Source of the DNA: Cololabis saira
Taxonomy: Eukaryota > Chordata > Actinopteri > Beloniformes > Belonidae
Direction: 5' to 3'
DNA length: 64,000 nt
Assembly: GCF_033807715.1 (NCBI RefSeq)
Contig: NC_084606.1
Span: forward strand, 39,142,478-39,206,477
A program made the position numbers and the translations under genes. Below the pieces are notes generated by a model. That model worked only from the letters and a program-made list of their open reading frames with translations. It was not told where the DNA came from and ran no database searches. Below are positions 2,631 through 58,646 of the stretch, piece by piece (the first letter of the stretch is position 1; each line of letters begins with the position of its first letter).

Positions 2631-3063
2631 CTTCCTTCCTTCCTTCCTTCCTTCCTTCCTTCCTTCCTTCCTTCCTTCCTTCCTTCCTTCCTTCCTTCCT
2701 TCCTTCCTTCCTTCCTTCCTTCCTTCCTTCCTTCCTTCCTTCCTTCCTTCCTTCCTTCTTTTTTCCCTTCCTTCCTTCTTTCCTCCTGCTCTCTCCTTCC
2801 TTCTCCCTTCCATCCTTCCTCCCTTCCTTCCTTCTTTCCTCCTGCTCTCTCCTTCCTTCTCCCTTCCTTCCTTCCTTCCTTCCTTCCTTCCTTCCTTCCT
2901 TCCTTCCTTCCTTCCTTCCTTCCTTCCTTCCTTCCTTCCTTCCTTCCTTCCTTCCTTCCTTCCTTCCCTCCTTCCTTCCTTCCTTCCTTCCTTCCTTCCT
3001 TCCTTCCTTCCTTCCTTCCTTCCTTCCTCCCTTCTTCCCTTCCTCTTTTCTCCCTCCCTCCCT
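2631..3063. repeat. (TTCC)n microsatellite array
   Basis: About 430 bp of TTCC with interruptions such as CTCCTGCTCTCTCC that recur in the other arrays of this window. Unlike the other arrays, no TTAACCCTTGTGCTGTC terminus is visible on either side. Confidence 0.95.
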
Positions 3064-3473
3064 CACCATGCCGACCTGAACGCGGACGTGCTGCTCGGTG
3101 GAAACGCAGTTAAAGGGAATGTCAGACGGTGGTGGGAATGTCAACATGCAGATTTCAGAGAGTGAAAACAAGTGTGAAAAATAGTTTTCAGAGTGCCTTA
3201 AAAGCAGTTCGTTAACATCACCAATGCTTGAGAACCGAGGAATGGAAACTACGTTGCAACACAAAAGGAATTTTCCAGCACTGCATTGTACTCTTCCCTG
3301 TTTGTAAAGTTTAGATTGCTCATGCACACAAAAGCACTCGTCAGCCTTGGTCGCCCGTAGGTCCCACCGGGGGCGGAAACGCCATGGCCATAGACTTTAG
3401 AACCACAGCAATCAGCGTGAAAGCAGGCAAGTCACCAGCCAGTGCAGCACTGAGCTCATGCTCAACCTCTTAC

Positions 3474-4337
3474 CCTTCCCAGGAAGTCGTCATCGTCATA
3501 AAACCCTGCCTGATCTCTAGAGGGAAGCTCCTCGCACACGGGCCGCCCAACCTCGGCGGGATGCTCCCGTGAAGTTTCTGAATCATAAGAGAATTCACCG
3601 AGACTTTCACTGCCGGAGGAGAAGCGCTTGCAGTCCTCTACTACGAGGAAAGGGTGAGCGGTGTACTGAGGGCTTCCCTTCAGGGAGCCGATGTCAGGAG
3701 TCCTGCTCGGTATCGGTGAAGGGGGTTCATAGATATGATAGCCGAGCTCGCATTCTTGATTCCCGTCGTCCGGTTCAGAAAAGTCTTGCCTGCAGTCAAA
3801 GAACTCAACGTCCGACTCTGAGTGTTGTGGAGACTCGGGGCTCGTCCGGGGTTCTTTTAGAGGGGTGTTTGGTTCTTGTAATTCTAATTCTGAGATTGTT
3901 CCTTCAAATTCTGATAACACTTTCTCAAAGTCTGGAGAAAAGTCAAGGTCTTCGGCGGTTTGAGACTGTGTTTTGCTGGCGTCCAGGGTCACAGCCTGAA
4001 CTGACCTGGAGTCGCTGGAGACTTGAGACACTGGACTAAAATCATTCAAGGACATCTGGCTGCATTCATGTCCTGAAAATATTGCCTCATGATCTGGTGG
4101 TAACAAAAACTGATGAGAAATGGGTGAAAGAAGCTGACTGGACCGAGGTTGGGAGGACCCCTGAGATGGGTCAGTCTTCTCAATAGTGTGCAGAACTGCA
4201 GTGACAGTTCGGTGTGTTGTGTACAAGCTCTGGTCAGGTAGTTGAATGGGAACTTGCAGCAGTGGCTTCTCATCACTGACCAGCACACTTATCCTACCGG
4301 CATCATCTCTTTGAAACTCAGTTTCCCCTGGAGGAGC
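3474..4337 (-). CDS. ank3: ank3 late regulatory exon, 288 codons
   Basis: An 864-nt phase-0 exon with acceptor tcacttacag and donor AGG then gtaaga. It opens APPGETEFQRDDAGRISV, follows the second giant exon in phase, and ends DDDDFLGR. It is acidic and Ser/Pro-rich with SPDFEKVLSEFEGTISELE, TSPESPQHSESDVEFFD and PPSPIPSRTPD, i.e. the same SPES style as the second giant exon. Because it ends in a good donor, at least one more exon must lie to the left of the window. The conserved ANK3 C-terminus (human TEEEYIDEHGHTV) was not found here. Function unknown. Confidence 0.8.
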
Positions 4338-6418: not shown

Positions 6419-9400
6419 CCCGTGAGAGGCTGCCGGGCTCTTCTCTTTCTCACTCTTTACAGCTTTAACTGGTGGTGGCATCACAGAAAACGCTTTTTTC
6501 ACGTCTTCCTCACAAATAGTGGTTGGTAAACTTGAGAAACTTTCAGCTTCTGGACGATGCACAATCCCTTCTTTGGAAAATAAGACTTCTGATTGTGGTT
6601 CATTTATCGGCTGCATGCCACTGTCAAGATGTTTATCGCTGGACATTTCCTCAAAATCTTGAACTATAAATGATGACATTTTCAAATTGGCCTCAGGTGG
6701 TGATGAGGGTAATACAGGAGATGCCACTTGGTGTGAGAGTGTTAAGCTCCAGACTGATGTATCAGGACTTTCATAACAAACGTCTAATTCATCTTCAGAT
6801 CCAATACTTTCAGGGCTTAGAGGTCTAGGGCTATCGTCAATCCAGCATTCAATGGGTAGACTCTCAAAGTCTGATAAGTCTGATGACAACGACAAAGGTG
6901 AGGGGGATCTATCAAATGGGGCAGCGTCCAGGAAATAAGAGGATAATATTCTCATAAATTCGGGTACTGGTGAGTCGGGCAGTAGTCGGTGGAATTCACT
7001 GACGGATGATACAGATTCAGGAGAGGATGGTCTGTCAGTATCTGCAGCTTTTGATGATATAACCATGAGCTCATAGTCTGAATCTGAATCCAGTGATTCT
7101 GGTGAGGATGGTTCGCGTATGGGGGCGTACTCCTCCAACGCTGCAGCAAACTGAGGGATGGGAGAGTCTGGAGACAGCCGCCTCCTCTCGTTGAACTCGG
7201 GCAGTGATTCTGGAGATGATGCTCTTTTGTCCGCCATGCTCATGGCCGATTCCACCGTCATAGGTCTGTACTCGAGCGGAGACTCAGATAATGGCCTTTC
7301 ACTCTCATTCTGACCCTCACACGGAACAAATGGTGGAGATGATGGACAGATTTCTGCAAATAGTGACTGGAAATGAAGTTCCGTGAAGTCTGATGCTTCA
7401 CCAGGAACACCCCTCTTAGATTCGTCTATATTGCCCCAGGGCTGCATGAATCCTGTTTTATTCTGAAAGGTTTCTCCTGCATACTGAGGATCACGTACTT
7501 GAGATATCAGCTTCCACAGCTCAGCGCCATAAATTAGATTGTACCCAGCTACCGCAGTGGCTGAGTAAGGTGTCACTAGTGTTGCTAGAGCAGCAGATGC
7601 TGATCTGTGTTCTGTACAACATGGAACTGAGGATTGTGATAAACTCTCAGACTCATCAATTGACTCAGTGGACACTGGAGAGACTGATGTGATTTCCCCC
7701 TGTAACATCACTTCCACAGGTGACACGGGTTTGTATTCTGGATTTGACTCAACTGAAAGCGGCCTCTCTCGTGCCGTTGATTGAACTGATTCAGGTGAAT
7801 CTCGTCTGTCCTCAAGATCAAACGCCACAGACATTAAAAACTCAGTTAAAACATACTCTACATCTGAATCTACGTATTCAGGGGAGGGTGACCTATAGCC
7901 AGCATTTATGATTATGTTTTCAGGCACTGCTGCTTTGTACTCAGGTATGGGCGAGTCTGGTGACAAAGCCTGGTATTCGTCTTCAGATGCTCCTGAGCCA
8001 GGTGAGGAAGGTCTTCTATCATAAAACAATGGTCCTAGACTAAGAACAAAATATTCAACATCTGAACATGCTGATTCAGGGGATGTTGATCGACTATCAA
8101 AAATAACTTCAGATAGTTCTGGCTCTACAAAGTCCGGTAGAGGAGACTCAGGTCTGAGTGACCACACGGATTCAGGAGAGGAAAGCCTTCTCTCCATGAA
8201 TTGTAATGGCACGTCCGTTTCCAGATCTGATGACACTGATTCAGGTGATGGAGTCCTCAGCTGCCTGTATGGTTTGACAGATTGGTGTACCATAAATTCA
8301 GGTATGGGAGAGTCGGGGGAAAGTGGCCTGAAGTCATCTTTTGATGCTATTGAACAAGGAGATACGGCTCTGTCTTCAAAAAGCCAAATCACACACAAAT
8401 CTGTCTCCAGGTCCTGATCAGAAACCTCTGACTCAGGTGAAGTGGACCTTAAGGTCATATCTGCTCTGGAGAACTCATGTTCTGCCGGTCTAAAGTCAGG
8501 TATGGGAGAGTCGGGGGAAAGTGGCCTGAAGCCATCGTTTGATGCTATTGAACAAGGAGATACGGCTCTGTCTTCAAAAAGCCAAGTCACACACAAATCT
8601 GTCTCCAGGTCCTGGTCTGAAACCTCTGACTCAGGTGAAGTGGTTCTGTATCTTACTATTAAAATAGTGGCTTCAGTATTGGGGAACTGTGGTACTGGAG
8701 AGTCTGGAGACAAACACCTAAGATCAGGATCAGACATCTCAGATTGACGGGAATCTGTTCTGTCCTCCCAATCAAACATCTGGCAAATCAAAGGAGCATA
8801 TTCTATGTCTGAAAACACTGATTCAGGTGAATTGGACCTGAAGGACAAGCGTGACGTTGAGCATTCAAGTTCTGCCGGTCTAAATTCAGGTATGGGGGAA
8901 TCAGGCGAAAGTGGTCTAAAGTTATTGCTTGATGCTATTGAACAAGGAGATACGGCTCTGTCTTCAAAAAGCCAAGTCACACACAAATCTGTCTCCAGGT
9001 CCTGGTCAGAAACCTCTGACTCAGGTGAAGTGGACCTTAAGGTCATATCTGCTCTGGAGAACTCAAGTTCTGCAGGTCTAAATTCAGGTATGGGAGAGTC
9101 GGGGGAAAGTGGCCTGAAGTCATCGCTTGATGCTATTGAACAAGGAGATACGGCTCTGTCTTCAAAAAGCCAAGTCACACACAAATCTGTCTCCAGGTCC
9201 TGGTCTGAAACCTCTGACTCAGGTGAAGTGGTTCTGTATCTTACTATTAAAATAGTGGCTTCAGTATTGGGGAACTGTGGTACTGGAGAGTCTGGAGACA
9301 AACACCTAAGATCAGGATCAGACATCTCAGATTGACGGGAATCTGTTCGGTCCTCCCAATCAAACATCTGGCAAATCAAAGGAGCATATTCTATCTCTGA

Positions 9401-12400
9401 AAACACTGATTCAGGTGAATTGGACCTGAAGGACAAGCGTGACGTTGAGCATTCAAGTTCTGCCGGTCTAAATTCAGGTATGGGGGGAATCAGGCGAAAG
9501 TGGTCTAAAGTTATTGCTTGATGCTATTGAACAAGGAGATACGGCTCTGTCTTCAAAAAGCCAAGTCACACACAAATCTGTCTCCAGGTCCTGGTCAGAA
9601 ACCTCTGACTCAGGTGAAGTGGACCTTAAGGTCATATCTGCTCTGGAGAACTCAAGTTCTGCAGGTCTAAATTCAGGTATGGGAGAGTCGGGGGAAAGTG
9701 GCCTGAAGTCATCGCTTGATGCTATTGAACAAGGAGATACGGCCCTGTCTTCAAAAAGCCAAGGCAAACACAAATCTGTCTCCAGGTCCTGGTCAGAACA
9801 CACTGATTCAGGTGAAGTGGACCTGAAGGACAAGTGTGATGTTGAGCATTCAAGTTCTGCCGGTCTAAATTCAGGTATTGGGGAATCAGGCGAAAGTGGT
9901 CTAAAGTCATCGCTTGATGCCATTGAACAAGGAGATACGGCCCTGTCTTCAAAAAGCCAAGTCAAACACAAATCTGTCTCCAGGTCCTGGTCAGAACACA
10001 CTGATTCAGGTGAAGTGGACCTGAAGGACAAGCGTGACGTTGAGCATTCAAGTTCTGCCGGTCTAAATTCAGGTATGGGGGAATCAGGCGAAAGTGGTCT
10101 AAAGTCATTGCTTGATGCTATTGAACAGGGAGATACGGCCCTGTATTCAAAAAGCCAAGTCATGCACAAATCTGTCTCCAGGTCCTGATCAGAAACCTCT
10201 GACTCAGGTGAAGTGGACCTTAAGGTCATATCTGCTCTGGAGAACTCATGTTCTGCAGGTCTAAATTCAGGTATGGGAGAGTCGGGGGAAAGTGGCCTGA
10301 AGTCATCGCTTGATGCTATTGAACAAGGAGATACAGCCCTGTCTTCAAAAAGCCAAGGCAAACACAAATCTGTCTCCAGGTCCTGGTCAGAACACACTGA
10401 TTCAGGTGAATTGGACCTGAAGGACAAGCGTGACGTTGAGCATTCGAGTTCTGCCGGTCTAAATTCAGGTATCGGGGAATCAGGCGAAAGTGGCCTGAAG
10501 TCATCTTTTGATGCTATTGAACAAGGAGATACGGCCCTGTCTTCAAAAAGCCAAGTCACACACAAATCTGTCTCCAGGTCCTGGTCAGAACACTCTGACT
10601 CAGGTGAAGTGGTTCTGTATCTTACTATTAAAATAGTGGCTTCAGTATTGGGGAACTGGGGTACTGGAGAGTCTGGAGACAAACACCTAAGATCAGGATC
10701 AGACAGCTCAGATTGACGGGATTCTGTTCTGTCCCCCCAATCAAACATCTGGCAAATCAAAGGGGCATATTCTATCTCTGAAAACACTGATTCAGGTGAA
10801 TTGGACCTGAAGGACAAGCGTGACGTTGAGCATTCAAGTTCTGCCGGTCTAAATTCAGGTATGGGGGAATCAGGCGAAAGTGGTCTAAAGTTATTGCTTG
10901 ATGCTATTGAACAAGGAGATACGGCTCTGTCTTCAAAAAGCCAAGTCACACACAAATCTGTCTCCAAGTCCTGGTCAGAAACCTCTGACTCAGGTGAAGT
11001 GGACCTTAAGGTCATATCTGCTCTGGAGAACTCATGCTCTGCAGGTCTAAATTCGGGTATGGGAGAGTCGGGGGAAAGTGGCCTGAAGTCATCGCTTGAT
11101 GCTATTGAACAAGGAGATACGGCCCTGTCTTCAAAAAGCCAAGTCAAACACAAATCTGTCTCCAGGTCCTGGTCAGAACACACTGATGCAGGTGAATTGG
11201 ACCTGAAGGACAAGCGTGACGTTGAGCATTCAAGTTCTGCCGGTCTAAATTCAGGTATGGGAGAGTCGGGGGAAAGTGGCCTGAAGTCATCTTTTGATGC
11301 TATTGAACAAGGAGATACGGCTCTGTCTTCAAAAAGCCAAGTCACACACAAATCTGTCTCCAGGTCCTGATCTGAAACCTCTGACTCAGGTGAAGTGGAC
11401 CTTAAGGTCATATCTGCTCTGGAGAACTCATGTTCTGCAGGTCTAAATTGAGGTATGGGAGAGTCGGGGGAAAGTGGCCTGAAGTCATCGCTTGATGCTA
11501 TTGAACAAGGAGATACGGCTCTGTCTTCAAAAAGCCAAGTCACACACAAATCTGTCTCCAGGTCCTGGTCAGAACACACTGATTCAGGTGAAATGGTTCT
11601 GTATCTTACTATTAAAATAGTGGCTTCAGTATTGAGGAACTGGGGTACTGGAGATTCTGGAGACAAACACCTAAGATCAGGATCAGACAGCTCAGATTGA
11701 CGGGATTCTGTTCTGTCCTCCCAATCAAACATCTGGCAAATCAAAGGAGCATATTCTATCTCTGAAAACACTGATTCGGGTGAATTGGACCTGAAGGACA
11801 AGCGTGACGTTGAGCATTCGAGTTCTGCCGGTCTAAAGTCAGGTATGGGAGAGTCGGGGGAAAGTGGCCTGAAGTCATCGCTTGATGCTATTGAACAAGG
11901 AGATACGGCCCTGTCTTCAAAAAGCCAAGTCAAGCACAAATCTGTCTCCAGGTCCTGGTCAGAACACACTGATTCAGGTGAATTGGACCTGAAGGACAAG
12001 CGTGACATTGAGCATTCAATTTCTGCCGGTCTAAATTCAGGTATGGGGGAATCAGGCGAAAGTAGTCTAAAGTTATTGCTTGATGCTATTGAACAAGGAG
12101 ATACGGCTCTGTCTTCAAAAAGCCAAGTCACACACAAATCTGTCTCCAGGTCCTGGTCAGAAACCTCTGACTCAGGTGAAGTGGACCTTAAGGTCATATC
12201 TGCTCTGGAGAACTCATGTTCTGCAGGTCTAAATTCAGGTATGGGAGAGTCGGGGGAAAGTGGCCTGAAGTCATCGCTTGATGCTATTGAACAAGGAGAT
12301 ACGGCCCTGTCTTCAAAAAGCCAAGTCACACACAAATCTGTCTCCAGGTCCTGGTCAGAACACACTGATTCAGGTGAATTGGACCTGAAGGACAAGCGTG

Positions 12401-15400
12401 ACGTTGAGCATTCGAGTTCTGCCGGTCTAAATTCAGGTATGGGGGAATCAGGCGAAAGTGGTCTAAAGTCATCACTTGATGCTATTGAACAAGGAGATAC
12501 GGCCCTGTCTTCAAAAAGCCAAGTCAAACACAAATCTGTCTCCAGGTCCTGGTCAGAACACACTGATTCAGGTGAATTGGACCTGAAGGACAAGCGTGAC
12601 GTTGAGCATTCAAGTTCTGCCGGTCTAAATTCAGGTATGGGGGAATCAGGCGAAAGTGGTCTAAAGTTATTGCTTGATGCTATTGAACAAGGAGATATGG
12701 CTCTGTCTTCAAAAAGCCAAGTCACACACAAATCTGTCTCCAGGTCCTGGTCAGAAACCTCTGACTCAGGTGAAGTGGACCTTAAGGTCATATCTGCTCT
12801 GGAGAACTCATGTTCTGCAGGTCTAAATTCAGGTATGGGAGAGTCGGGGGAAAGTGGCCTGAAGTCATCGCTTGATGCTATTGAACAAGGAGATACGGCC
12901 CTGTCTTCAAAAAGCCAAGTCAAACACAAATCTGTCTCCAGGTCCTGGTCAGAACACACTGATTCAGGTGAATTGGACCTGAAGGACAAGCGTGACGTCG
13001 AGCATTCGAGTTCTGCCGGTCTAAATTCAGGTATTGGGGAATCAGGCGAAAGTGGTCTAAATTCATCACTTGATGCTATTGAACAAGGAGACACGGCCCT
13101 GTCTTCAAAAAGCCAAGTCACACACAAATCTGTCTCCAGGTCCTGGTCTGAAACCTCTGACTCAGGTGAAGTGGACTGATAAGCATATGTTTCTATGGAG
13201 GCTTGTAGCTCCTTCCCAAACTTTAGAGAGCCTGTCGATTCAGGAGATGATAATCCGGGGATCGATGGCAGCGACACGGGTGAGGAAGACCTAAATTCTG
13301 ATGCAGAATCAGGTGACAAAGGCTTCTCTTCAAGTACTCGTTTTAATGCCCCTGGATGGTCTGGTCTACTTTCAGTAACACAGCAGACATTTGTAATTAC
13401 AGGAGCAAACTCAACATCTGTTGGAACTGAGCCAGAAGATACTGAACCAAACCTAATAAATGATGGGAAACGTTCAACTACTGATAGGGCCTCATGTTCA
13501 TCTCCAGAAGCACCTGAATTAGGTGATAGACATCCCTGTTCATCTGATATTATTATACGTAAGCCATCTTCGTAATCCATATCAGAAAAACAAACTGGCT
13601 CAGGTGAATTGGCGAACTCATGTTTTGCATTGCCAGACCCTCCAGGTTGGCTTACAGAGACGTCTACTGCATAATGAGGGTCATAAAGCTGACTTATCAT
13701 CCGGTGTTCTCTATAGGCTACACCACCCGCTGACTGACTGTCACTGAGGTCGTACAAAGTTGATTCGGGGGAGTCAGTTCTCTGGTCTGTGACGGCCGCT
13801 GACATGGGAAACCCATATTTGACATCCGAAGGTGAGGAGGACCTGTTCCCCGAGCCAGCTCTAACTGGCTCAGAGACTGCAGATCTGAAGTCTGGTAGTG
13901 GCCAATCTGCTGAATCTACCTCATCGGACATAGCTAGTTCAGGTGAAGAAGGTTGAGACTGTGAAAACTGAAGAACTGAGTCTAACCCCAACTCTTTCCA
14001 GGATGCTACAGAATCAGAGCCACACTCTGACTCAGAATCTTGGGTCTTTTCTCTCTCTAAACTACTTTTATCTGTAGTGGCCAACTTCACATTATCCTCT
14101 AACTCTCTCTCTCTAATGTCTGAATCTTCGTGAAGATATTCAATTCTTGTTCCAGCATATTTGAAAACCCCTGTTTTACCTAAATACATTTCCCCAACAT
14201 AGTGAGGATCATGTATTTGAGAGATTAGCTTCCACAGCTCAGCATCATATGTGAGTTTATAGAATGGCACCGTAATTGCTTTCGAAGATTGACTAGTCCC
14301 AACTAGTGGTCTCTCTGTGGTCTGTGCTTCTGGTGAGGCAGGTCTCCGCAGAGAAATACTTATGTCTTCATTTGACTGCGGATTTTCAGAATGAAGTGAT
14401 AATGATCGTTGATGCATTTCCAACATCAGGGGAGAAGTTTTACCTTCTGCAAGCCGTTCCGACTTTACCTGATGAGTTTCTTCTCTGTGAAACTGAGGCG
14501 TGCCTGTCTGAGCCAACAATCTTTCTTCTACATACTGTGGATCATGAACTTTAGAGATGAGCTTCCAAGGTTCAGTATCATGAGCTAAACTTAACAGCAA
14601 ATGTTCAGCTGAAGGTGGAGGAGTATGACTCTGAACTGTAGAAGCTGAATACTTTTGGGGCTGACCTTCGTGTACGTCTGAAGATGAAGTCATTGACTCA
14701 GTTAGACCCTCAGATGCAGGTTTTGTTTCTAACCTTTCAACACACGTGTCTCCTGTAACAGATGTTGTTTGTGTGGGTTGACGCAACACGTCTTTGTCAA
14801 AAAGCTGGCCAGTTTCAGGATTTGACGATTGCCTGAAATCACTAACTGAGTCGACAGAACCAGGAGACGGTGGCTGGTTTTCAAAGTAAGATGGCAAAGG
14901 CTTGGTCTCATGGATAGTATCTGCCAACGCTGACTCTGTGTCTGCTTCATGAGACTGTGGTAGTACTGGTCTGTGGTATTGTTCTGATTCTGATGAAGAA
15001 ATCATGACCCAGTCGTCATCACTCTCAGCTGATACCTGCTTTGGTTCATGATCTGTAGGTCTGATGTCTGATTCCATATCAGATAGCTCTGCTTCAGGAG
15101 AGGATGACATACATTTATAACTTTTAAAACGCTTAGAGGCAGATAGACTAGATTCTGGGACAGGGGAGTCTGCTGAAAGCTGGTAGGTTGCGGTGATGGA
15201 CCCTACGGATTCAGGAGATGAGGACCAAATCTCGTAGAAATCACAAGTCTCATGTTGTTCAGATGTAAAAACCCAGTGCGCTGTTTCCTCAATCATAGAC
15301 TCAGGTGATGATGCTCTGTCATCTAAGTCAAACGTTAATGACGGAGGTGACATCGATCTTCCACAGCTGTCGTCACTGCCAGGGGACACCGGTCTCCCAA

Positions 15401-16551
15401 AAGGCTTTTTATTTGAAACCATTGGTGTTAAAGGCCTTTCCTCTGTGACTACCGTTAACAGCACTTGGGTGCCCCCTGGTGGTTGTTTGTGGACGGAGGC
15501 CCCATCAGGCTCCCACGGAAAAACAGGGGGTGGGAGTGGGGACAAGGGCCTAAAGTGAGGAACCGGCGAATCAGGAGTGAGAAAATGCAACTCATTCACT
15601 GATGACACAGATTCAGGTGTTGACACTCTGCTCTCTGTGAGCAATATTGCTGTGGTGGAAACCCATTCAGGTGAAGAAGACCTGCCATGAGCCGAGCTTT
15701 GAATGGCAGGTATTGACTCACACACATTTTCAAAAGTTGGATCATTTGATTCCTGGGTGAAGGCTGCAGAGGGGATGCTTTCCAGTTTTTCAGACGTCAA
15801 AACTGAGGTTGTCTTCTGGGTTTGGCCCATGACATCAAGATCATCTGAAACTGAGGCCTGAGTAACGTCAGCTTTAATTCCAGAGGTTGAAACATCTCTC
15901 CTGACTTCTTGAATCATGCTGTCAGAGCATGACAGAGACACATCTTCACTTTCTGAATCCACCAGCTTAACCTCATATCCATACAGAACTTTATAAAGTC
16001 TCTGTGACACTTCATCTAGGTGTCTTGTTTGTTCGCCCTGTGTAAATTCGATGCCTCCACTGTCCGGGGGCGCTGAAGCACCCAGAGGTATCTGCTCACC
16101 CCGAGGTTGCTGCACCTCCTCCGATTCCTTCAGCTCCATGGACAGGTTCTTGAAATCTTGCTCAGCTTGCTCACATTCGGTCAAACTATCTCCATAATCC
16201 GTCAAAGACAGCAGTCGACTTTCGCTTACACCTGTCCGAGAGACGTCGGACGTCTCCCGCCAACTTAACGGTTCTGGTTCTGCAGAGGTGGGAGTTCGTA
16301 GACACTCCAAGCTCCAATCCTCTCCCCCCTCGTCCACCCCCTCACATTCAGCATCACCTGGTTCAACAGTAGGGGTGAGGGGTGGGGTGGTCTGAACACA
16401 CAGCTTGGGTCCCCCTTTGTACACGGGGTCTATCACATGGGATCTGAGCTGGTAGGGAGAGGTGCGGTACAATGTGAACAGAGGACTTACTTGTTTGTAA
16501 CTGCCTGTGTGCACAGAGTCTGTCACTTCCTCGTATATTCTTTGTGATGGG
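6419..16551 (-). CDS. ank3: ank3 second giant exon, downstream of the death domain (SPES/SPDSP repeat exon)
   Basis: One exon of 10133 nt. The acceptor is a run of 15 C then atgcag; the donor is CACGGG then gtaaga. It enters completing the leucine codon of the preceding exon and, apart from one extra base, leaves in phase 0, so 3377 codons are intended. The product begins PSQRIYEEVTDSVHTGSYKQ. Three parts are visible. The first is an acidic Ser/Pro-rich leader (16551 to about 13180) with scattered SPES and SPDSP motifs and three WKLIS-like segments. The second is a core of 25 near-identical tandem units (13178-8295). The third is a tail of degenerate units (8294-6419) with a fourth WKLIS segment. 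The motif S-P-E-S/S-P-D-S-P suggests many proline-directed phosphorylation sites (inference). The frame is broken once by an added G at 9482-9487, so this assembled copy would terminate soon after. I do not recognise a named domain. In known ANK3 proteins this place holds only a modest regulatory domain. Confidence 0.85.
8295..13178 (-). repeat. 25-unit coding tandem array, 198-bp (66 aa) and 192-bp (64 aa) units
   Basis: Twenty-one copies of a 66-residue unit (key parts SPESEVSDQDLETDLC, WLFEDRAVSPCSIASS, RPLSPDSPIPEFRPAE) and four copies of a related 64-residue unit (key parts SPESVFSEIEYAPLICQMFD, CLSPDSPVPQF). Within the 66-residue class the tail is either ELECSTSRLSF or EHEFSRADMTL, and the two tend to alternate. 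Unit lengths are multiples of three and copies differ by only a few residues, which implies recent unequal exchange or gene conversion. Copy number was counted by eye from the translation. Confidence 0.9.
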
Positions 16552-25795: not shown

Positions 25796-26804
25796 CTTCC
25801 ATTATGGAAGAAGAACAAGTAAGGAGTAAAAAAAGTCAAAAATGTAAATGAAAGGAGACAGACATTGGAGAAGGAGGTCAGGATAAGACTGGAAAACACT
25901 GTAGGGATCATAAGTTTCACAGCAGGTTCTATACAACATAACAGGAATTCGGCTTTTACTTTCTTTACTGTGATACAGCAAAGAGTCAATAAAAACAATG
26001 GGGAAAAATATGAGCAGGAAATAACTTGCGCATACACTCGCACCCACACTCACATGACAAACTATGACGCAGAACGGAAATACACAAAAGAAAAACTGCA
26101 CCAGCTGTGAATGAGCTCATAGAAGAAAAAGAAACATCAAAGAAACAACATCAAACTATCTCAAGATTGCTTAAATGTGTGACAAATGTCACTGTGATGA
26201 CAGGAAAATGGCTTGAACACAACTGAGTATGACAGTTACGTCAATTAAAGAAAGCCAGTGATGAGCTAAACACACGATGATTTGACTTAAACAAATTAGA
26301 ATCACAGAATGTAAAACACAATAACATCTAAAATACTAAAAATAAAATATAGTTCTATAGACTGAGAACGTAAATAACACAAAAACACAACAAAAAACAC
26401 AAGAAAACAGTGATTTAATGGGGAATTCCAAAATCAAGATAAAAAACAAAAATATCAAAAATAACTTATAACTCGTTAATAACATGTCATCACACGCACA
26501 CACATACACACACACACACACATTTATGTAAGGCAAGTTATTTCCATGCAAAGCAAAGGGAAGGGCTGATGGAAAGAGAATGGAAAAGGGAATGGAGTGA
26601 GCAGACAGTCAAAGTCATGACTGCTTTTAAAATGTAAGAGCCAATGAGCAATAAGTGCTCGACCCCAACTGTAGCGCGTTCCTGAAAACCTACGAGGAAT
26701 TTCCCTCAGTAACATATAATCCTCTGATGTCACATATGTTTTACCTACAGCGGCAAGAAAAAGTGTCCAAAGCCCTTGGAAATAATTTCTGCAGTAATTT
26801 GCTA
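25796..26804. other. intron, mostly unique; short CA repeat
   Basis: No exon recognised. It holds a (CA)n run at about 26492-26521 on the plus strand and otherwise nothing notable. Confidence 0.55.
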
Positions 26805-26810
26805 GTAAAG

Positions 26811-27310
26811 TACGGAAGAGTATTAGGGCCATGGAGTAGAAAAAATATTTGAGAGGGGAAGATTTTTTTTTATTGTGCACTTCGAGAAAAAAGTTGAAAT
26901 GTCGACATTAATGTTGAAATACAATTTCAAGAATAAAGTGAAAATTTTGTGAATAAAGTCGAAATTTTGCCTTTTTTCCCTCAACATTTCGATGTACTTA
27001 TTAACCTGACTGGTTGAGAAAAAAGTCGAAATGTCGAGAATAAAGTCGAAATGTCGAGAATAAAGTCGAAATGTTGAGAATAAAGTTGAAGTACAATTTC
27101 GAGAAAAAAGTTGAAATGTTGAGAAAAAAGTCAAAATTTTGTGAATAAAGTTGAAATTTTGACTTTATTCTTGAAATAGTATTTCCACATTAATCTCGAC
27201 ATTTCGATTTTTTTCTCGACATTTCGACTTTTTTCTCGAAGTACACAATAAAAAAAAATCTTCCCCTCTCGAATATTTTTTCTACTCCATGGCCCTAATA
27301 CTCTTCCGTA
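26811..27310. mobile_element. TIR element with 6-bp target duplication (GTAAAG), copy 2
   Basis: Starts TACGGAAGAGTATTAGGGCC, ends GGCCCTAATACTCTTCCGTA, flanked by GTAAAG on both sides. The interior is a longer version of the GTCGAAATGTCGAG motif array than in copy 1 (500 versus 311 bp). An identical termini pair with different 6-bp target sites shows real transposition. Confidence 0.88.
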
Positions 27311-27958
27311 GTAAAGTGTTAAGGCATTGACAGAAATTGATAATTTAATGCCAAATTAATGCAGAAAACCAGTTTTTCTGGCCAATGTAGAACATAAGCA
27401 TTTCCACATGAATTTAGAAGTTTTTTACATTTATTACATGAACAAAGCGTGGAGGGAGGGAGGGATTCAGTGGTCTAGGGGTTTACTACTGCTTCATCTT
27501 CAAACTAGAACCACTGCTAGAGTACGACTACAATCACAGCCTCTGTTTATTTTCGCCGGGTCCTCATTTGTGCTTCGTTTTTTCTGCAAATGCATAAAGT
27601 GCATTTGAGCAGATAGACCAGATGCTACTGCTAGGAAACAGGGGCCGTTATACAAACATCACAGAGCGAGCAGCTCAGCTTTCGTGTACATACGTAGAGG
27701 ACAGTGTGTCGCTCTTTCCCCGCACGTCCCAGCTTAAACAGCGAAGGTGAGAGAGGGTTAAAGGCATGACAAAGATGCAGGCGTGAAGTTCAAAAAGAAC
27801 AGCAACTCAGGAGAAAAGTGAAGCTTCAGGAGAAGCGTGACATGAACATGAAGATGAGTGACGAGACAGATTCATAAGCAGCTAAAAGGCTTGGACGGCA
27901 TGCAAACAGTCTCAGTGTGGGCTGCACGGTTACGCTTTAGTTCATATTCTGCTTTCTA

Positions 27959-28595
27959 TTAACCCTGGTGCTGTCTTCAGGTCAAGGGAGGAGGAAGAGA
28001 AGAAGGGAGGAAAGAAGGAAGGAAGGAAGGAAGGAAGGAAGGAAGGAAGGAAGGAAGGAAGGAAGGAAGGAAGGAAGGAAGGAAGGAAGGAAGGAAGGAA
28101 GGAAGAATGAAAAGAAGGAAAAAAGAAGCAAGGAAGGGAGAATGAAAAGAAGGAAAGAAAGAAGGAAGGAAGGGAGAAAAGAAGGATGGAAGGAAGGAAG
28201 GAAGGAAGGAAGGAAGGAAGGAAGGAAGGAAGGAAGGAAGGAAGGAAGGAAGGAAGGAAGGAAGGAAGGAAGGAAGGAAGGAAGGACGGACGGACGGAAG
28301 GAAGGAAGGAAGGAAGGAAGGAAGGAAGGAAGGAAGGAAGGAAGGAAGGAAGGAAGGGAGGGAGGAAGGAAGGAAGGAAGGAAGGAAGGAAGGAAGGAAG
28401 GAAGGGAGAAAGGAGGAAGGAAGGAAACTAGGAAAGAAGGAAGGGAGAAGGAAGGAGAAAGCAGGAGGAAAGAAGGAAGGGAGAAGGAAGGAGAGAGCAG
28501 GAGGAAGGAAGGAAGGGAGAAGGAAGGAGAGAGCAGGAGGAAAGAAGGAACAGGAGAATGAGGTCATTTTGACCCGAAGACGGTACAAGGGTTAA
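27959..28595. mobile_element. piggyBac-like MITE filled with a GGAA array
   Basis: TTAA-flanked; left end CCCTGGTGCTGTCTTCAGG, right end GACCCGAAGACGGTACAAGGG preceded by GAGGTCATTTTGACC. The GGAA array occupies the interior. It sits about 120 bp 3' of the 22-nt microexon. Confidence 0.85.
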
Positions 28596-28714
28596 GTTTA
28601 TTCGATCACTCACACAGTATCAACACTTCTGATATTAGCTTCTTTGATAACGACAATCAATATTATTAGCATATAAATGTTAAATAAAAAAAACAAAACA
28701 CTAAATGTCTTACA

Positions 28715-28736
28715 TTTCTCGAACATCCTGCTGGTC
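28715..28736 (-). CDS. ank3: ank3 22-nt microexon (TSRMFEK)
   Basis: A 22-nt segment flanked by a strong acceptor (tttctttttcag) and a strong donor (gtaaga). It encodes TSRMFEK plus one base. That base completes TAT with the first two bases of the giant exon, giving TSRMFEK-Y-EETETSGLKSE. Human ANK3 has MTSEKNDETESTETSVLKS at the same junction, so length, phase and residues all fit. No other exon was recognised between this one and the linker at 37.8 kb. Confidence 0.65.
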
Positions 28737-29378
28737 TGAAAAAGAAAATGCAAAATGTACAGTTAGTTTGTTAATAAAAGAGAAACTACTACTTCAGGTT
28801 TGTCACGAACAACCAACATCACAACATCAACAGTAAACGATGTACACAGATCTGGAGTAGATCAATCAACGACTCCACAAACGTTGGGACTCTGCATGAA
28901 ATGCAAGTAAACACAGAATGTAAAGATCTGTAAATCTCAAAAAGCCACATTTGAGTCACAACAGAAAAAGCATCACAAATGTTGAGAGTGATACATTTTA
29001 CACTTTCATGTAAAATATTTACTTATTTTGATTTTGATGGCAGCAACAAGTCTCAAAAAAGGTTGAAGGCTGGAAAGGTGGACCAAGCAAGAAGCACCCG
29101 GAGAAACATTTACAACTGAGAACAGCTAGGTGGCATGATTGGTCTCAGAAGTGAAGCCAAATAACGAGGTTCACCAATCTCTGAAAACTGAGCGTGCACA
29201 TTACGAACCATTTCAGATCATCTAAAATGGAATGAAGCAAAGAAGAATATGGTCCTATGACCTGTCAAATGAAAATGGTAGATTCTTTTTTGACACCTTG
29301 GACACCAGGTCCTCCGTACTAAAAAGGAGTGGGGTCATCATGCTCGTAAAGGTCCTGCAGCTTTCAGCAAGACAATGA

Positions 29379-29960
29379 CTACGTTTACATGCAGTCAAAA
29401 TTCAGGTTATTGCTAATATTCCGGTTACTGAAACATTGGGAATATTCCGTTTACATTAGTAATTAATCATTCGGGATATCTGGATCAAACCAGCAACGCA
29501 CGGAGAAGGTGATGACACAATTCCCGTCATTTCTGCTTCTTCTTCCTGTATCCAAATTCAAAACAAATGCTGCTTCGGGCAACTTTTCTCTCACCTTCTT
29601 GTAAATCTTCTATCCCGGTACTTTCTACCATCTACAAATGCAGAAATGTTCATATCCTTCATTACATTTATGAAGTGATTAGTCTCCTCCTGGTCTTGGT
29701 TTCTCCGTGTTTAGAAGAACTTCCTGGACTCAAAAGACCAGGATTCCTTGTGAACAGAGCATGTGCAGAAAACTAATTCCTGTTCCGTTTGATGGGGATA
29801 TTCCGTTTACATGACCCAATATTCTGACCTGGCAATAAAGCTTTTTCTGATTCTGATTCTGTTTCTGATTCGGTTTTAAAAGGAGTAACCCAGGGCTCAT
29901 ATTCAGGTTTTTAAAAACCCCAATATGAGAAAATTCAGGTTATTCAAAGTAGTCTAGATG
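29379..29960. mobile_element. MITE with CTACGTTTACATGCAGTC end, copy 2 (truncated)
   Basis: Matches the 16640-17052 element from its left end through AATATTCCGTTTACAT and CCAGGGCTCATATTC. The right end is missing and a segment rich in CTGATTCTGATTCTG is inserted. Confidence 0.6.
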
Positions 29961-30189
29961 GAAAGTGGGGTCCACGCGCACCCCCCGGATTTTTTTATGC
30001 CACCTGATTTTTTTTAATCCTTTAAATGTCTAGTTTCAGAATTTGGTCAGTGCCAAGATCAACTAATGTCTGAAAGGCTTCGTTTTCACACTTAATTGCA
30101 TCTAACTCCAGACCAGAAAATTGAAATTTGAGATTGGCAAAGTAGCATATCCTATCATACATACAAGCCACAGAGACTAATAACACATT

Positions 30190-30640
30190 TATTTTTGCTG
30201 CAACCACCGAGCAACGACCAAAACAATCTAGCAACCACCTAGCAACCACTTTTAAGACCCTAACTACCCTAGCAACCACCCTAGCAACCACACCTAAAAG
30301 AACTTAAAACCTCCTTGGTCTAGAAGGAAAATGGGTTTCAAGGGTAACCCCTATTATTTATGTCATCTACTTTTTGTTATCATCAAAGTGTCTTCTTTCA
30401 GAATTTGTCAGGTGCCAACCTGAAATCATCTCCCAAAGGTTTTATTTTTTATCCTTGTACTGCGAACCCCGACCAGAAAACTCTAAACACCGACATAGTA
30501 TGTGGTGCAACTTTTGTCCTAAACAACTTACAGAGACAAATTAATACATTTTCCAAGCCAACTCTGATAGGCCATCACGTAGCAACCACCTTTAAGACCC
30601 TAGCAACCACCCTAGCAACCGCCTCTGTAAGTTGTTTAGG
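30190..30640. repeat. degenerate AGCAACCACC minisatellite blocks
   Basis: Two clusters (about 30198-30296 and 30578-30625) of CTAGCAACCACC-type units, with a partly inverted copy of the flanking text (TAAGTTGTTTAGGACAAAAG versus CTTTTGTCCTAAACAACTTA). No coding content. Confidence 0.55.
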
Positions 30641-30812
30641 ACAAAAGTTACACCACATTGTAGAGACAAATGAATATATTTACCCAGGCAACTCTGGTAA
30701 AATGAACACAATAAAATAATTGTTTATTACATTTGACTACACACTGACTGTTTAAAACAAAAATCGTAAATAAAAAGCCAAAAAATGTGTGTAGGATGCA
30801 GTTAACTTGTGA

Positions 30813-31253
30813 CTAATCGTCAAATTCGCCATCACTGAGGAGATCTTCTATCTCTATTTCTTTCATTTCTAAGTTTTCATCATTCTTATACTCGTTGTCC
30901 TCTTCATCACCAGATATGTTGTTGTTGACAGCATCGGCTCCCATGTCAAGAGCCGCCTGCTCTTCCACCTCAGCTCTTTGAGCCAGTAACTCGACAAGAG
31001 TAGGAGGGAGGATGGGTCCCATTGTCCATATGGGTTCCAGTACCTCTTCGTCTGTTTTCTCCCAGCCCATGCCCGGGTCATATGCGTTTGGGCTTTCCAT
31101 TATTGCCTCGGCTGCTCTCTTATAGCATGCCACCCTGTAGTTAGCCCGTTGCAAATGGGGGATGAGACAGGCTTTGGGAGGAGGCAGGCGTTCAAGGTCT
31201 ACTTTCGACCTAGAGTCCAGGACCTTCTCGCTACCAACCATCTTCCTCAGCAT
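30813..31253 (-). pseudogene. C-terminal fragment of a mobile-element-like protein of unknown function
   Basis: A 146-codon frame ending in an acidic tail (EEDNEYKNDENLEMKEIEIE). The body has LERLPPPKACLIPHLQRANY, YDPGMGWEKTDEEVLEPIW and GPILPPTLVELLAQ. The LPP...HLQRANY...GW...PIW pattern resembles the C-terminal part of multicopy fish proteins of probable transposon origin; I cannot name the family. Its 5' part runs into the assembly gap. It is not an ankyrin exon. Confidence 0.5.
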
Positions 31254-31289
31254 CTTCGCTCGTGCTGCATCAACCGATGTTATTCGTGG

Positions 31290-31789
31290 NNNNNNNNNNN
31301 NNNNNNNNNNNNNNNNNNNNNNNNNNNNNNNNNNNNNNNNNNNNNNNNNNNNNNNNNNNNNNNNNNNNNNNNNNNNNNNNNNNNNNNNNNNNNNNNNNNN
31401 NNNNNNNNNNNNNNNNNNNNNNNNNNNNNNNNNNNNNNNNNNNNNNNNNNNNNNNNNNNNNNNNNNNNNNNNNNNNNNNNNNNNNNNNNNNNNNNNNNNN
31501 NNNNNNNNNNNNNNNNNNNNNNNNNNNNNNNNNNNNNNNNNNNNNNNNNNNNNNNNNNNNNNNNNNNNNNNNNNNNNNNNNNNNNNNNNNNNNNNNNNNN
31601 NNNNNNNNNNNNNNNNNNNNNNNNNNNNNNNNNNNNNNNNNNNNNNNNNNNNNNNNNNNNNNNNNNNNNNNNNNNNNNNNNNNNNNNNNNNNNNNNNNNN
31701 NNNNNNNNNNNNNNNNNNNNNNNNNNNNNNNNNNNNNNNNNNNNNNNNNNNNNNNNNNNNNNNNNNNNNNNNNNNNNNNNNNNNNNNNN
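31290..31789. other. assembly gap (500 N)
   Basis: Exactly 500 N, which is usually a placeholder for a gap of unknown length. It lies in the interval where the ZU5-ZU5-UPA exons of ank3 should be. Confidence 0.98.
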
Positions 31790-32724
31790 TTTACAGATGC
31801 AGTCAGTATTAAAAATGCTCCATATCCCATCCTTGGAGGACGGTTAGACTGGTTATTTCATTAACGGTGAAGAGGAAAAGGCCTGACTCAGCACATACCT
31901 TTGCATTCGACTATGGAGGCAGACAAGGAAGACCGACCGTGAAGTATGAGGAGGCGAGGTTGCAAAACACACAAACACACACACGTACAAATGCAGACAG
32001 TTAGATGTTTTGTGCACAAAAAGAAAGGGTTTCACATACAGGAAGTACATCAGTAATTAGACAGAGACAGGGTGTGTCTCTACTAGGGGTTGTAACGATA
32101 CACTAATCTCACCATACGGTATGATACACGATATTGAGGTGACGATAATGATACAATACGATATTATAGCAGTATTTTTATTAACAACTTGAATGAGGAA
32201 ATTATGACTAGAAAAAATGGTCTTTTATTTGAAAGACACAAAATACAAAACAATGCTGTGCGTTTGCCCTATTGTTACAGTTTGTAATGATTTATAACTG
32301 TTTAGGTTTTAAAGAGAAAGCCAGGCCAACCATTTTCCACAAACTAAAAGTTAATATCAGGTTTGCATTATGCATCTTCAGTTTCATACAAGTACAAATA
32401 TTTTGCCACAAACTGAATAGTTTCTCTCATGTATGATTTGACTTTTTCTTTTCCAGAAATTTAACAACTAAAATTATATAAATAAATAAAAGTAAATAAA
32501 TAAAACTATGAAAACACCGGTGCATCAGCAAAAATAGTCCCTGGTAATTCACTTCCGTTGTGGCTTTTTTATTTGCGTCGTTTTTTTTTCAATTTTCAGC
32601 AGGGTTTCTTTATATTTGCAGCGTTTATTTTATTTGCAAAGCGTTTATTAAATTTGCAGCAGCGTTTATTTCTGTTTTGCAGCGTTACTTTTATTTTCAG
32701 CAATGGCGGGGTCTCGACCACCGT

Positions 32725-32898
32725 ACTTATTTCTTTGATTCACTGTGACCGGACAAGCTGGAAGCTAAAGAAAGTATCAACCAGCGCTCTGGGGGGTTTT
32801 GCACCGCGGAGAGAATGGAGTGACGGAGAAGTCCGAAGGTTCACGACGGCGTCACGGAGACGGCGTAGGCTCTGCGTTGGTTTAAGGCAGAACCATAA
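32725..32898. mobile_element. Harbinger-like MITE fragment
   Basis: Matches the right half of the 657-1081 element (TTGATTCACTGTGACCGG, CACCGCGGAGAG, ACGGCGTCACGGAGACGG) up to GCAGAACCAT. Its terminal bases (ATCAGGC) reappear on the far side of the GGAA element at 36513, so the GGAA element jumped into it. Confidence 0.65.
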
Positions 32899-35800
32899 CC
32901 CTTGTGCTGTACTTCTGGGTCAAGGAAGGAAGGAAGGAAGGAAGGAAGGAAGGAAGGAAGGAAGGAAGGAAGGAAGGAAGGAAAGAAGGAAGGAAGGAAG
33001 GAAGGAAGGAAGGAAGGAAGGAAGGAAGGAAGGAAGGAAGGAAGGAAGGAAGGAAGGAAGGAAGGATGGGAGAAAAGGAAGGGAGAGAAAGGAAGGGAGA
33101 AAAGAAGGAAGGAAGGAAAGAGGAAGGAAGGAAAGGAAGGAAGGAAGGAAGGAAGGAAGGAAGGAAGGAAGGAAGGAAGGAAGGAAGGAAGGAAGGAAGG
33201 AAGGAAGGAAGGAAGGGAGAAAATAAGGAAGGAAGGATGGGAGAGAAAGGAAGGGAGAAAAGAAGGAAGGAAGGAAAGAGGAAGGAAGGAAAGGAAGGAA
33301 GGAAGGAAGGAAGGAAGGAAGGAAGGAAGGAAGGAAGGAAGGAAGGAAGGAAGAAAATAAGGAAGGAAGGAAGGGAGAAAAGGAAGGGAGAAAAGAAGGA
33401 AGGAAGGAAGGAAGGAAGGAAGGAGAAGGAAGGAAGGAAGGAAATAAGGGAGGGAAGGAAGGAAGGAAATAAGGAAGGAAGGAAGGAAGGAAGGAAGGAA
33501 GGAAGGAAGGAAGGAAGGAAGGAAGGAAGGAAGAAAATAAGGAAGGAAGGAAGGGGAGAAAAGGAAGGGAGAAAAGAAGGAAGGAAGGAAGGAAGGAAGG
33601 AAGGAAGGAAGGAAGGAAGGAAGGAAGGAAGGAAAGAAGGAAGGGAGAAAATAAGGAAGGAAGGATGGGAGAAAGGAAGGGAGAAAAGAAGGAAGGAAGG
33701 AAAGGGAAAAAAGTGGAAAGGAAGAAGGAAAGAGAGAGCAGGAGGAAAGAAGGAATGGAGGAAAGAAGGAAGGAAGGAAGGAAGGGAGGAAAAGAGGAAG
33801 GGAAGAAAAAAGGAGGAGAGCAGGAGGAAAGAAGGAAGGAAGGAAATAAGGAAGGAAGGATGGAGAAAAGGAAGGGGAGAAAAGAACAAATGAAGGAAGG
33901 AAGAAGGAAGGAAGGAAGGAAGGAAGGAAGGAAGGAAGGAAGGAAGGAAGGAAGGAAGGAAGGAAGGAAGGAAGGAAAGGAAGAAAAGTGGAAGGGAAGA
34001 AGAGAGGAGAGAGCAGGGGGAAATAAGGAAGGGAGGAAAGAAGGAAGGAAGGAAGGAAGGGAGAAAAGAGGAAGGGAAGAAGGAAGAAAAGAGGAAGGGA
34101 AGAAAGGAAGGAAGAGAGCAGGAGGAAGGAAGGGAAAAGGAAGGCAGGAAGGAAGGAAAGGGAAGAAGGAAGGAGAGAAGTAGGAGGAAAGAAGGAAGGA
34201 AGGAAGGAAGGAAGGAAGGAATGAAGGAAGGAGGAAAGGAGAAAACTAGGAAAGAAGGAAGGAAGGGAGAAGTGAAGAGGAAGGGAAGAAGGAAGAAAAG
34301 AGGAAGGGAAGAAGGAAGGAGAGTGCAGGAGGCAAGGAGGTAAAGAATAGGAAGGAAGGAAGGAAGGAAGGAAGGAAGGAAGGAAGGAAGGAAGGAAGGA
34401 AGGATGAAAAGGGAAGAAGGAAGGACGAAAAGGGAAGAAGGAAGGAGAGAGTAGGAGGAAAGAAGGAAGGAAGAAAGGAAGGAAGGAAGGTGAGAGAAAA
34501 CAAGGAAGGAAGGAAGGAAGGAAGGAAAGAAGGAAGGGGAGGAAGGAAGGGAGAAAAGAGGAAGGGAAGAAGGAAGGAGAGAGCAAGAGGAAAGAAGGAA
34601 GGAAGGAAGGAAGGAAGGAAGGGAGGAAAACAAGGAAGGAAGGAAGGAAGGAAGGAAGGAAGGATGGAAGGAAGGAAGGAAGGAAGGAAGGAAGGGAAGG
34701 AAGGAAGGAAGGAAGGAAGGAAGGAAAGGGAAGGAAGGAAGGAAGGAAGGAAGGAAGGATGGGAGAAAAAGGAAGGGAGAAAAGGAAGGGAGAAAAGAAG
34801 GAAGGAAGGAAAGAGGAAGGAAGGAAAGGAAGGAAGGAAGAAGGAAGGAAGGAAGGAAGGGAAGGAAGGAAGGAAGGAAGGAAGGAAGGAAGGAAGGAAG
34901 GAAGGAAGGAAGGAAGAAGGGAGAAAATAAGGAAGGAAGGATGGGAGAAGAGAAAGGAAGGGAGAAAAGAAGGAAGGAAGGAAAGAGGAAGGAAGGAAAG
35001 GAAGGAAGGAAGGAAGGAAGGAAGGAAGGAAGGAAGGAAGGAAGGAAGGAAGGAAGAAGAAAATAAGGAAGGAAGGAAGGGAGAAAAAGGAAGGAGAGAA
35101 AGAGGAAGGAAGAAGGAAGGAAGGAAGGAAGGAAGGAAGGAAGGAAATAAGGGAGGAAGGAAGGAAGGAAATAAGGAAGAAGGAAGGAAGGAAGGAAGGA
35201 AGGAAGGAAGGAAGGAAGAAGGAAGGAAGGAAGAAAATAAGGAAGGAAGGAAGGGAGAAAAGGAAGGGAGAAAAGAAGGAGGAAGGACAGGAAGGAAGGA
35301 AGGAAGGAAGGAAGGAAGGAAGGAAGGAAGGAAAGAAGGAAGGGAGAAAATAAGGAAGGAAGGATGGGAGAAAAGGAAGGGAGAAAAGAAGGAAGGAAGG
35401 AAAGGGAAAAAAAAGTGGAAAGGAAGAAGGAAAGAGAGAGCAGGAGGAAAGAAGGAATGGAGGAAAGAAGGAAGGAAGGAAGGAAGGGGAGGAAAAGAGG
35501 AAGGAAGAAAAAAGGAGAGAGCAGGAGGAAAGAAGGAAGAAGGAAAGGAATAAGGGAAGGAAGTGTTGGGAAAAAGGAAGGGAGAAAAGAACAAATGTAA
35601 GGAAGGAAGGAAGGAAGGAAGGAAGGAAGGAAGGAAGGAAGGAAGGAAGGAAAGGAAGGAAGGAAGGAAGGGAAGGAAGGAAGAAAAGTGGAAGGGAAGA
35701 AGGAAGGAGAGAGCAGGGGGAAATAAGGAAGGGAGGAAAGAAGGAAGGAAGGAAGGAAGGGAGAAAAGAGGAAGGGAAGAAGGAAGAAAAGAGGAAGGGA

Positions 35801-36512
35801 AGAAGGAAGGAGAGAGCAGGAGGAAGGAAGGGAAAAGGAAGGCAGGAAGGAAGGAAAGGGAAGAAGGAAGGAGAGAGTAGGAGGAAAGAAGGAAGGAAGG
35901 AAGGAAGGAAGGAAGGAATGAAGGAAGGAGGAAAGGAGAAAACTAGGAAAGAAGGAAGGAAGGGAGAAAAGAGGAAGGGAAGAAGGAAGAAAAGAGGAAG
36001 GGAAGAAGGAAGGAGAGTGCAGGAGGAAGGAGGTAAAGAAAGGAAGGAAGGAAGGAAGGAAGGAAGGAAGGAAGGAAGGAAGGAAGGATGAAAAGGCGAG
36101 AAGGAAGGACGAAAAGGGAAGAAGGAAGGAGAGAGTAGGAGGAAAGAAGGAAGGAAGAAAGGAAGGAAGGAAGGGAGAAAACAAGGAAGGAAGGAAGGAA
36201 GGGAAGGAAAGAAGGAAGGGAGGAAGGAAGGGAGAAAAGAGGAAGGGAAGAAGGAAGGACGAGAGCAAGAGGAAGAAGGAAGGAAGGAAGGAAGGAAGGA
36301 AGGGAGAAAACAAGGAAGGAAGGAAGGAAGGAAGGAAAGAAGGATGGAAGGAAGGAAGGAAGGAAGGAAGGAAGGAAGGAAGGAAGGAAGGGAAGGAAGG
36401 AAGGAAGGAAGGAAGGGAGGAAAAGAGGGAAGTGAAGAAGGAAGGAGAGAGCAGGAGGAAAGAAGGACAGGAGAATTAGGTCATTTTGACCCGAAGACAG
36501 CACAAGGGTTAA
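32896..36512. mobile_element. piggyBac-like MITE with a 3.5-kb GGAA array
   Basis: Left end ATAACCCTTGTGCTGTACTTC (the flanking TTAA has become ATAA), right end GACCCGAAGACAGCACAAGGG then TTAA. The interior is about 3.5 kb of GGAA with kilobase-scale internal duplications (the phrase GAACAAATG occurs near 33890 and again near 35590). It is the largest of the six such elements. Confidence 0.8.
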
Positions 36513-36849
36513 ATCAGGCTTTAATCCTACCGTGCTACACACTGAAACAACAAGCGTTGGAAAGATGGGAGAGATTAGTCACCCACCAGCTCAGAGCGCC
36601 CTCTTGTGTTAAACCAAAATCACTACATTGAAAAAGAAATCAGCGTCTGCTTGTATTGACTGGATACATTTGTCTCAATATCGCGCTACAGTTTGTCACC
36701 TCCCACGACACGTATCGTGACGTTTTTGTCTCGGGAAATTTCGTGGCACAATATATTGTTACACCCCTAGTCTGTACACAGGAGAGCCAGGGTCAACTAG
36801 TCTTCCAGAACATGAAGGGTTAGATGGAAAGCGATGCACGTACTTATCA

Positions 36850-37660: not shown

Positions 37661-37778
37661 GTGATTATGAGAGACGGGGATAAGTCCTTTTAGTTTTTAT
37701 TTACAGACAGGTTTTAACAGCCAGAGCAGGTTTTTTTGTCCGTCATTGTTGCAGCGTGTTGTACCTGTCAGCTACGAC

Positions 37779-58541: not shown

Positions 58542-58646
58542 CGGGTCACTCACTTTCTGACAATCTGTCTTTCTGCCACTCAGTGGGCGTAACCCGCTTT
58601 GAAGTCCCATCTGTGAAGTCATGCGCATTCCCTCTATACTCTAGAT

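Follow-up and report, generated by a model that had tools for sequence, protein, structure and literature searches.

Giant ankyrins organise axons, and to our knowledge mammals have only a short ankyrin tail after the death domain. In one comparative study, protostomes and echinoderms carry their long exons downstream of the death domain and chordates upstream of it, the multiple long exons of zebrafish AnkB being explained by introns that split one ancestral exon (PMC5135030, Jegla et al.). The mammalian insertion, exon 40, precedes the death domain according to the accessible part of another account, which also links autism to variants found only in giant ankyrin-B (PMC9386378). The locus considered here lies in a window of 64,000 nucleotides (nt) of the Cololabis saira contig NC_084606.1, the window being the whole stretch of DNA that was analysed, and belongs to an ank2 (ankyrin-B) gene. 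The reading judged strongly probable is that this ank2b-type gene holds an alternative giant exon after the death domain, allowing isoforms with giant arms before this domain, after it or on both sides, and that the arm of the tail would serve as a disordered docking rod. The exon itself is supported by the anatomy and phases of the exons, by conservation among teleosts, by codon constraint and by the gene models of relatives.

The exon after the death domain, its donors and its gene

The tail exons all lie on the minus strand. Homologues were pooled from three protein searches into a set of 191 distinct proteins, coded P0001-P0191, of which P0097 is an ankyrin-2b model from Sander. The post-death-domain giant exon (16551-6419; 10133 nt as assembled, 3377 residues if read through, with homologues in fish) begins at a strong acceptor (...CCATGCAG/CCC at 16551) and ends at the donor GGG/GTAAGA after 6419, as the first-pass annotation had held in giving the exon splice sites of its own. 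It is flanked upstream by a 235-nt exon that follows the death domain (17716-17482; P0097 match of 78% over 78 residues; donor GTAAGT) and downstream by an 864-nt exon (4337-3474; phase 0 on both sides; P0097 match of 53% over 328 columns), both bearing AG/GT ends, so that the long insertion stands downstream of the death domain. The 864-nt exon ends ...YDDDDFLGR, and this end aligns with the ends of 28 relatives chosen by pattern.

Inside the giant exon, a second donor (CAA/GTAAGT, phase 0, first intron base 16490) stands after nucleotide 61 and defines a 61-nt short form (16551-16491), which is absent from the first-pass annotation. In P0097 (residues 3247-3265) the 61-nt product (SQRVYEELTDTVRTGSFKQ) passes directly into the product of the 864-nt exon; the same junction is matched, by pattern only, in nine more proteins (P0074, P0075, P0077, P0091, P0093-P0096 and P0098), and P0135 joins the 61-nt product to the C-terminal block. 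Among the 60 short-tail models, in which the C-terminal block lies no more than 260 residues from the death-domain linker, 48 end this stretch with G-[ST]-x-[KR]-[QH], the 61-nt donor site, most of them being near-identical isoforms (36 with one sequence); in the remaining 12 the stretch is printed without G-[ST]-x-[KR]-[QH]. Continuation past the 61-nt donor point (K-Q-VSP type) is seen in 26 of the 191 proteins, in some only briefly. Because of the 61-nt junctions in short models and the read-through in these 26, the giant exon is most readily explained as an extension through alternative 5'-splice-site choice (61 nt versus 10.1 kb), and the gene models of relatives do include both 61-nt-type and giant forms. 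Use of the proximal donor would give the 61-nt exon and an ordinary ankyrin-B tail. Selection of the distal donor, most likely in certain tissues, would give the exon of ~10.1 kb, so that ~3,380 residues rich in Ser, Glu and Pro would part the C-terminal block from the death domain and move it away from the core. With the classical exon as well, ankyrin-B could carry a giant arm before the death domain, after it or on both sides, depending on the isoform.

The gene had at first been taken for ank3, an identity that is ruled out by the death domain. Assembled from three exons plus linker, it scores 134 bits against Ankyrin-2 (4d8o), 92 against Ankyrin-3 (4o6x) and 83 against Ankyrin-1, and is thus nearest to ANK2 among vertebrate ankyrins, not to ANK3. 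P0097 maps on both sides of the giant exon, aligning across the window by tblastn at the ankyrin-repeat, classical giant, death-domain, 235-nt and 864-nt exons, and it also matches at 16547-16482, the start of the post-death-domain giant exon. The classical giant exon before the death domain is present where the first-pass annotation had put it (about 25795-21293; 74% identity to P0097 over 1555 columns, tblastn 25793-21285; stop-to-stop frame of 1519 codons), and a 42-residue piece of it matches the Ankyrin-2 chain of 5yir/5yis (E 7e-4), that is, the LC3-interacting region (LIR) of the ankyrin-B giant exon. The death-domain scores, the P0097 mapping and this LIR-chain match identify the gene by homology as ank2, and its nearest named relatives mark it as ank2b-type. 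P0191 (Amia), P0120 (Oncorhynchus kisutch) and P0132 (Brachionichthys) are called 'ankyrin-3' by their source yet share the ankyrin-2 tail, and the death domain of the bowfin protein P0191 scores 157 bits against Ankyrin-2 versus 110 against Ankyrin-3 despite its name.

The death domain itself is spread over exons of 78 nt (20214-20137; P0097 match of 92% over 26 residues), 132 nt (18891-18760; P0097 match) and, including the linker, 153 nt (17963-17811; P0097 match of 79% over 53 residues), all with AG/GT ends. Ankyrin-repeat exons are present in the window together with these, and the 5' part of ank2 extends beyond it. The ZU5-ZU5-UPA exons (P0097 residues ~897-1504) were not found within the window, probably because they were swallowed by the 500-N assembly gap at 31290-31789, in a region (25800-37780) that also holds long tetranucleotide repeats. 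At the other end, the conserved C-terminal block has no match in the window and the end of the gene therefore lies outside. A block EIAEELG..SSDSSEEEVLTTRVVRRRVIIQ, seen in P0003 from residue 3714 and in relatives, follows the 864-nt exon outside the window and is highly conserved in teleosts. Between ankyrin-repeat exons lies a minisatellite (57190-58640, minus strand) in which many overlapping copies have open frames (YPKNQWSMDINIW...).

Composition, repeats and conservation of the tail

Ser and Glu make up 26.7% of the giant exon product, and Ser, Glu, Thr, Asp, Lys and Pro together (SETDKP) 52.2%, as against 11.5% and 33.5% in a fish Ank-UPA core. The marks of giant ankyrin exons given in the available text of PMC5135030 are about 25% Ser+Glu, which the tail reaches, and over 55% SETDKP, which it slightly misses. 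Much of the exon is a tandem array of a 198-nt (66-residue) unit rich in SPDSPIPEF (13176-8293; Tandem Repeats Finder score 5191, 24.8 copies). The exon contains 156 [ST]P and 23 S-x-I-P (after shuffling, 2.0 on average and at most 7). Of these S-x-I-P, 21 are in array copies reading DSPIP[EDQ], and the two outside read DSPIPEY and DSPIPQF. The motif SP.SP[IVL]P[EQDH][FY] occurs 27 times and not once in 500 shuffles; it is found 3-22 times in each of 13 teleost proteins counted, the count in P0046, P0054, P0060 and P0110 not beginning at the death-domain linker (boundary pattern absent or elsewhere), and is lacking in bowfin.

In the unique first part of the exon, a putative site of the form DDDW-V-x-I-S (DDDWVMISS at residue 511, 15020-14994) resembles the ankyrin-B LIR; it has no PDB match, and sites like it are seen in the giant exons of other percomorphs. 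The pattern shows in 11 of 79 alignments, three of them of Pygocentrus isoforms that have it inside a repeat, and repeats spoil this comparison. The pattern alone is found in the giant tail region of 11 of 27 chosen proteins, four of these 11 having it elsewhere in the tail (P0010, P0090, P0092 and P0101), and two more of the 27 have such a site only in the classical upstream region. Conservation of the candidate site is thus suggestive, and at the percomorph level only. A Pfam scan of the giant exon gave sub-threshold matches only, the best being DUF3664 in the array (22.1 bits versus a cut-off of 23), which is taken as chance. A module W-K-L-I-S-x-[IV]-x-DP-x-Y, corresponding to no known domain, is present in three copies on the minus strand (14567-14553, 14234-14220 and 7516-7502); WKLIS.(I/V).DP.Y is found in Parambassis and Umbra as well.

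Tetrapods, sharks and gar lie outside the homologue sample. The first 1150 residues of the giant exon product, used as the query of the first search, returned 73 proteins, every named one from a ray-finned fish and nine nameless; the best 120 of 1889 matches were used from the second search, and the 61 matches of the third are all from ray-finned fish. Counts are shaped by the queries, by length limits and by many salmonid isoforms and are not abundances. The death domain and the C-terminal block are both held by 117 of the 191 models, and the comparison with other teleosts that the first-pass annotation had proposed finds a homologous region after the death domain, with death domain and C-terminal block separated by 2715-4059 residues in 13 models, by 200-1000 in 45 and by fewer than 200 in 59. 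The UPA region is also included in 11 of the 13 giant-tail models: in Megalops (tarpon) P0172, of 6851 residues, 1418 lie between UPA and death domain and 3575 follow the latter, and the corresponding figures are 712 and 2890 for Echeneis P0090 and 32-43 and 2715-4059 for the other nine. Anguilla P0118 has 764 residues after the death domain, and bowfin P0191 has 994 with a different SP-rich repeat. Teleost models with this tail are already in databases, often under other names. Among such names, given to pieces of the tail, are cardiomyopathy-associated protein 5-like, mucin-2-like, mucin-3B-like and mucin-17-like, borne by P0020, P0031, P0043 and P0044.

Codon constraint is evident within the array. 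Across 21 copies picked by DNA identity alone, differences at codon positions 1/2/3 number 419/148/1226, and the ratio of nonsynonymous to synonymous differences (pN/pS) is 0.17 (bootstrap 0.12-0.22), whereas the two remaining sense frames give 1.76 and 1.59; one of the 21 copies touches the homopolymer discussed below at its edge. This value replaces an earlier 0.16 (20 copies), for which copies had been picked by amino-acid pattern, a choice that lowers pN. A tree of the C-terminal region sets four ank2a-type rows apart from 31 others (100/99) and places bowfin, on a long branch, within the larger side beside osteoglossomorphs (95/90), which led to the rejection of this tree as a means of dating the exon. 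The ank2a models that bear the motif, Phycodurus P0054 and Hypomesus P0067, both lack a death domain, and a position after the death domain is therefore unsupported for ank2a.

The frame switch and the rival explanations

Several points weigh against the proposed exon and its role. The tail forms of relatives are known mostly from automatic gene models and that of C. saira from genomic DNA alone; repeat content varies greatly among species; and one antisense frame of the array is also low (pN/pS 0.21), so that the strand is fixed by splice sites and homology and not by the ratio alone. It is doubtful that the SPIP repeats bind EB proteins directly, because basic residues near the S-x-I-P motif favour EB1 binding (PMC12695022), and the residues flanking SPIP here are acidic. 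As sequenced, a single open exon from 6419 to 16551 must also be rejected, the exon being read in two frames: frame A, stop-to-stop 16586-9474, of 2370 codons, and frame B, 9523-6401, of 1040 codons. Both lengths are far beyond chance, since stop-free runs peak at 228 codons in 100 first-order Markov sequences of equal length. The first-pass annotation had described one 10.1-kb open exon in phase with both neighbours; the exon ends are real, and frame A is in phase with the upstream flanking exon and frame B with the downstream one, but the upstream frame is not carried to the donor.

The two frames overlap at 9523-9474, and the switch falls in a C homopolymer inside the 198-nt array that is longer than in six other copies with exactly the same context. 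The switch probably reflects an error of assembly or an indel of very recent date, because similarity to other fish persists beyond it (26-56% in the best local alignments for the final 622 residues, which lie wholly in frame B). A true mutation in this animal, which would truncate the giant tail within the array and leave the shorter tails intact, would agree with the stop of the assembled frame A at 9474 and with a homopolymer length unlike that of copies of the same context. It is nevertheless held to be very improbable, given these matches, the similarity to the reference copy, which at 88-93% in the four array copies of frame B is close to that of the 17 copies of frame A (89-100%), and the frequency of homopolymer length errors in long-read assemblies.

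An internal promoter might also be the main source of the giant tail, which would then be a giant tail-only protein in its own right, comparable to small muscle ankyrin-1, and not part of ankyrin-repeat isoforms. Consistent with this are the 66 of the 191 collected proteins without a death domain and the eight of the 73 first-search matches that start at one homologous internal Met (MTDF..: P0003, P0008, P0015, P0016, P0031, P0034, P0048 and P0064). However, the counterpart of that Met is Leu in the window (SLTDYGDS, 16208-16185, minus strand), incomplete models commonly start at the first in-frame Met, fragments are favoured by the length limits of the searches, and 11 models combine UPA and death domain with the giant tail and the C-terminal block, all of which makes a tail-only product quite unlikely. 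A pseudo-exon without expression, or a gene distinct from ank2, is scarcely credible: some pieces from relatives are indeed named 'mucin-2-like' or 'cardiomyopathy-associated protein 5-like' or are uncharacterised, but the splice sites and phases, the ank2 exons on both flanks, the constraint and the combined gene models speak against both. The alternative giant exon of ank2 remains the preferred reading, and the earlier proposal that the long tail defines a second giant ankyrin class gains support from conservation in fish, gene models and codon constraint, with the correction that the class would be one of ankyrin-B, not of ankyrin-G.

Proposed role and comparison with known giant ankyrins

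What the arm does is proposed here rather than observed. It would act as a disordered spacer and docking rod with many proline-directed phosphorylation or docking sites, its SP-rich phosphorylatable repeats and LIR-like site recruiting microtubule-linked, Atg8-family or kinase partners, and it may in this way connect microtubules or other partners with the membrane skeleton of ankyrin-B. A link of the tail to microtubules or associated factors is put forward only tentatively, by analogy with Ank2-XL, whose C-terminal repeat region is stated in the available part of the source to be essential for microtubule interaction (PMC6703079), and with 480-kDa ankyrin-G, whose arm bears SxIP in the accessible account (PMC6839619).

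As to origin, it seems rather unlikely that the ank2 of ray-finned fish kept, or gained anew, beside the chordate long exon, the one after the death domain that has been inferred as ancestral in bilaterians, a possibility on which the one bowfin model with its long tail bears, bowfin having split off before the teleost genome duplication. If this were true, the published single 'switch' of position before chordates would become a gain or duplication, and giant ankyrin-B of vertebrates would come in forms with an arm before the death domain, after it or both. Growth of the tail exon within ray-finned fish is favoured, because the sequence appears fast-evolving and repeat-built and the bowfin repeat is different. 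A teleost ankyrin-B with both exon positions would alter the published picture of giant-exon placement, and fish models of ANK2 disease would then depart from mammals in the C-terminal region.

The exon resembles the giant exons of 440-kDa ankyrin-B and 480-kDa ankyrin-G in comprising thousands of nucleotides in one exon, in its Ser/Glu-rich product and in its alternative use, and the upstream giant exon of this gene shares an LIR-type motif with 440-kDa ankyrin-B. It differs from the giant exons of vertebrate ANK2 and ANK3, which are placed upstream of the death domain, following the spectrin-binding part, and its 198-nt tandem array sets it apart from vertebrate AnkG exons, which are said in the accessible text to lack arrays (PMC5135030). 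Teleost ankyrin-2 models in NCBI and UniProt (Megalops P0172 and Plectropomus P0088) have a homologous region in the same place after the death domain; no description of a vertebrate giant exon in this position was recognised in the literature searched, which lacked most subscription papers. The long exons of Drosophila Ank2-L and Ank2-XL, C. elegans unc-44 and sea urchin are, as far as the available sources go, likewise downstream of the death domain and biased in composition, and Ank2-XL also has a repeat array, of 76-residue repeats. The likeness seen is one of position, composition and repeats; the fish gene, unlike the invertebrate ones, also has an upstream long exon. The fish tail exon may serve as a vertebrate counterpart of Ank2-L/XL that is separable from the upstream exon, allowing the effect of position relative to the death domain to be tested.

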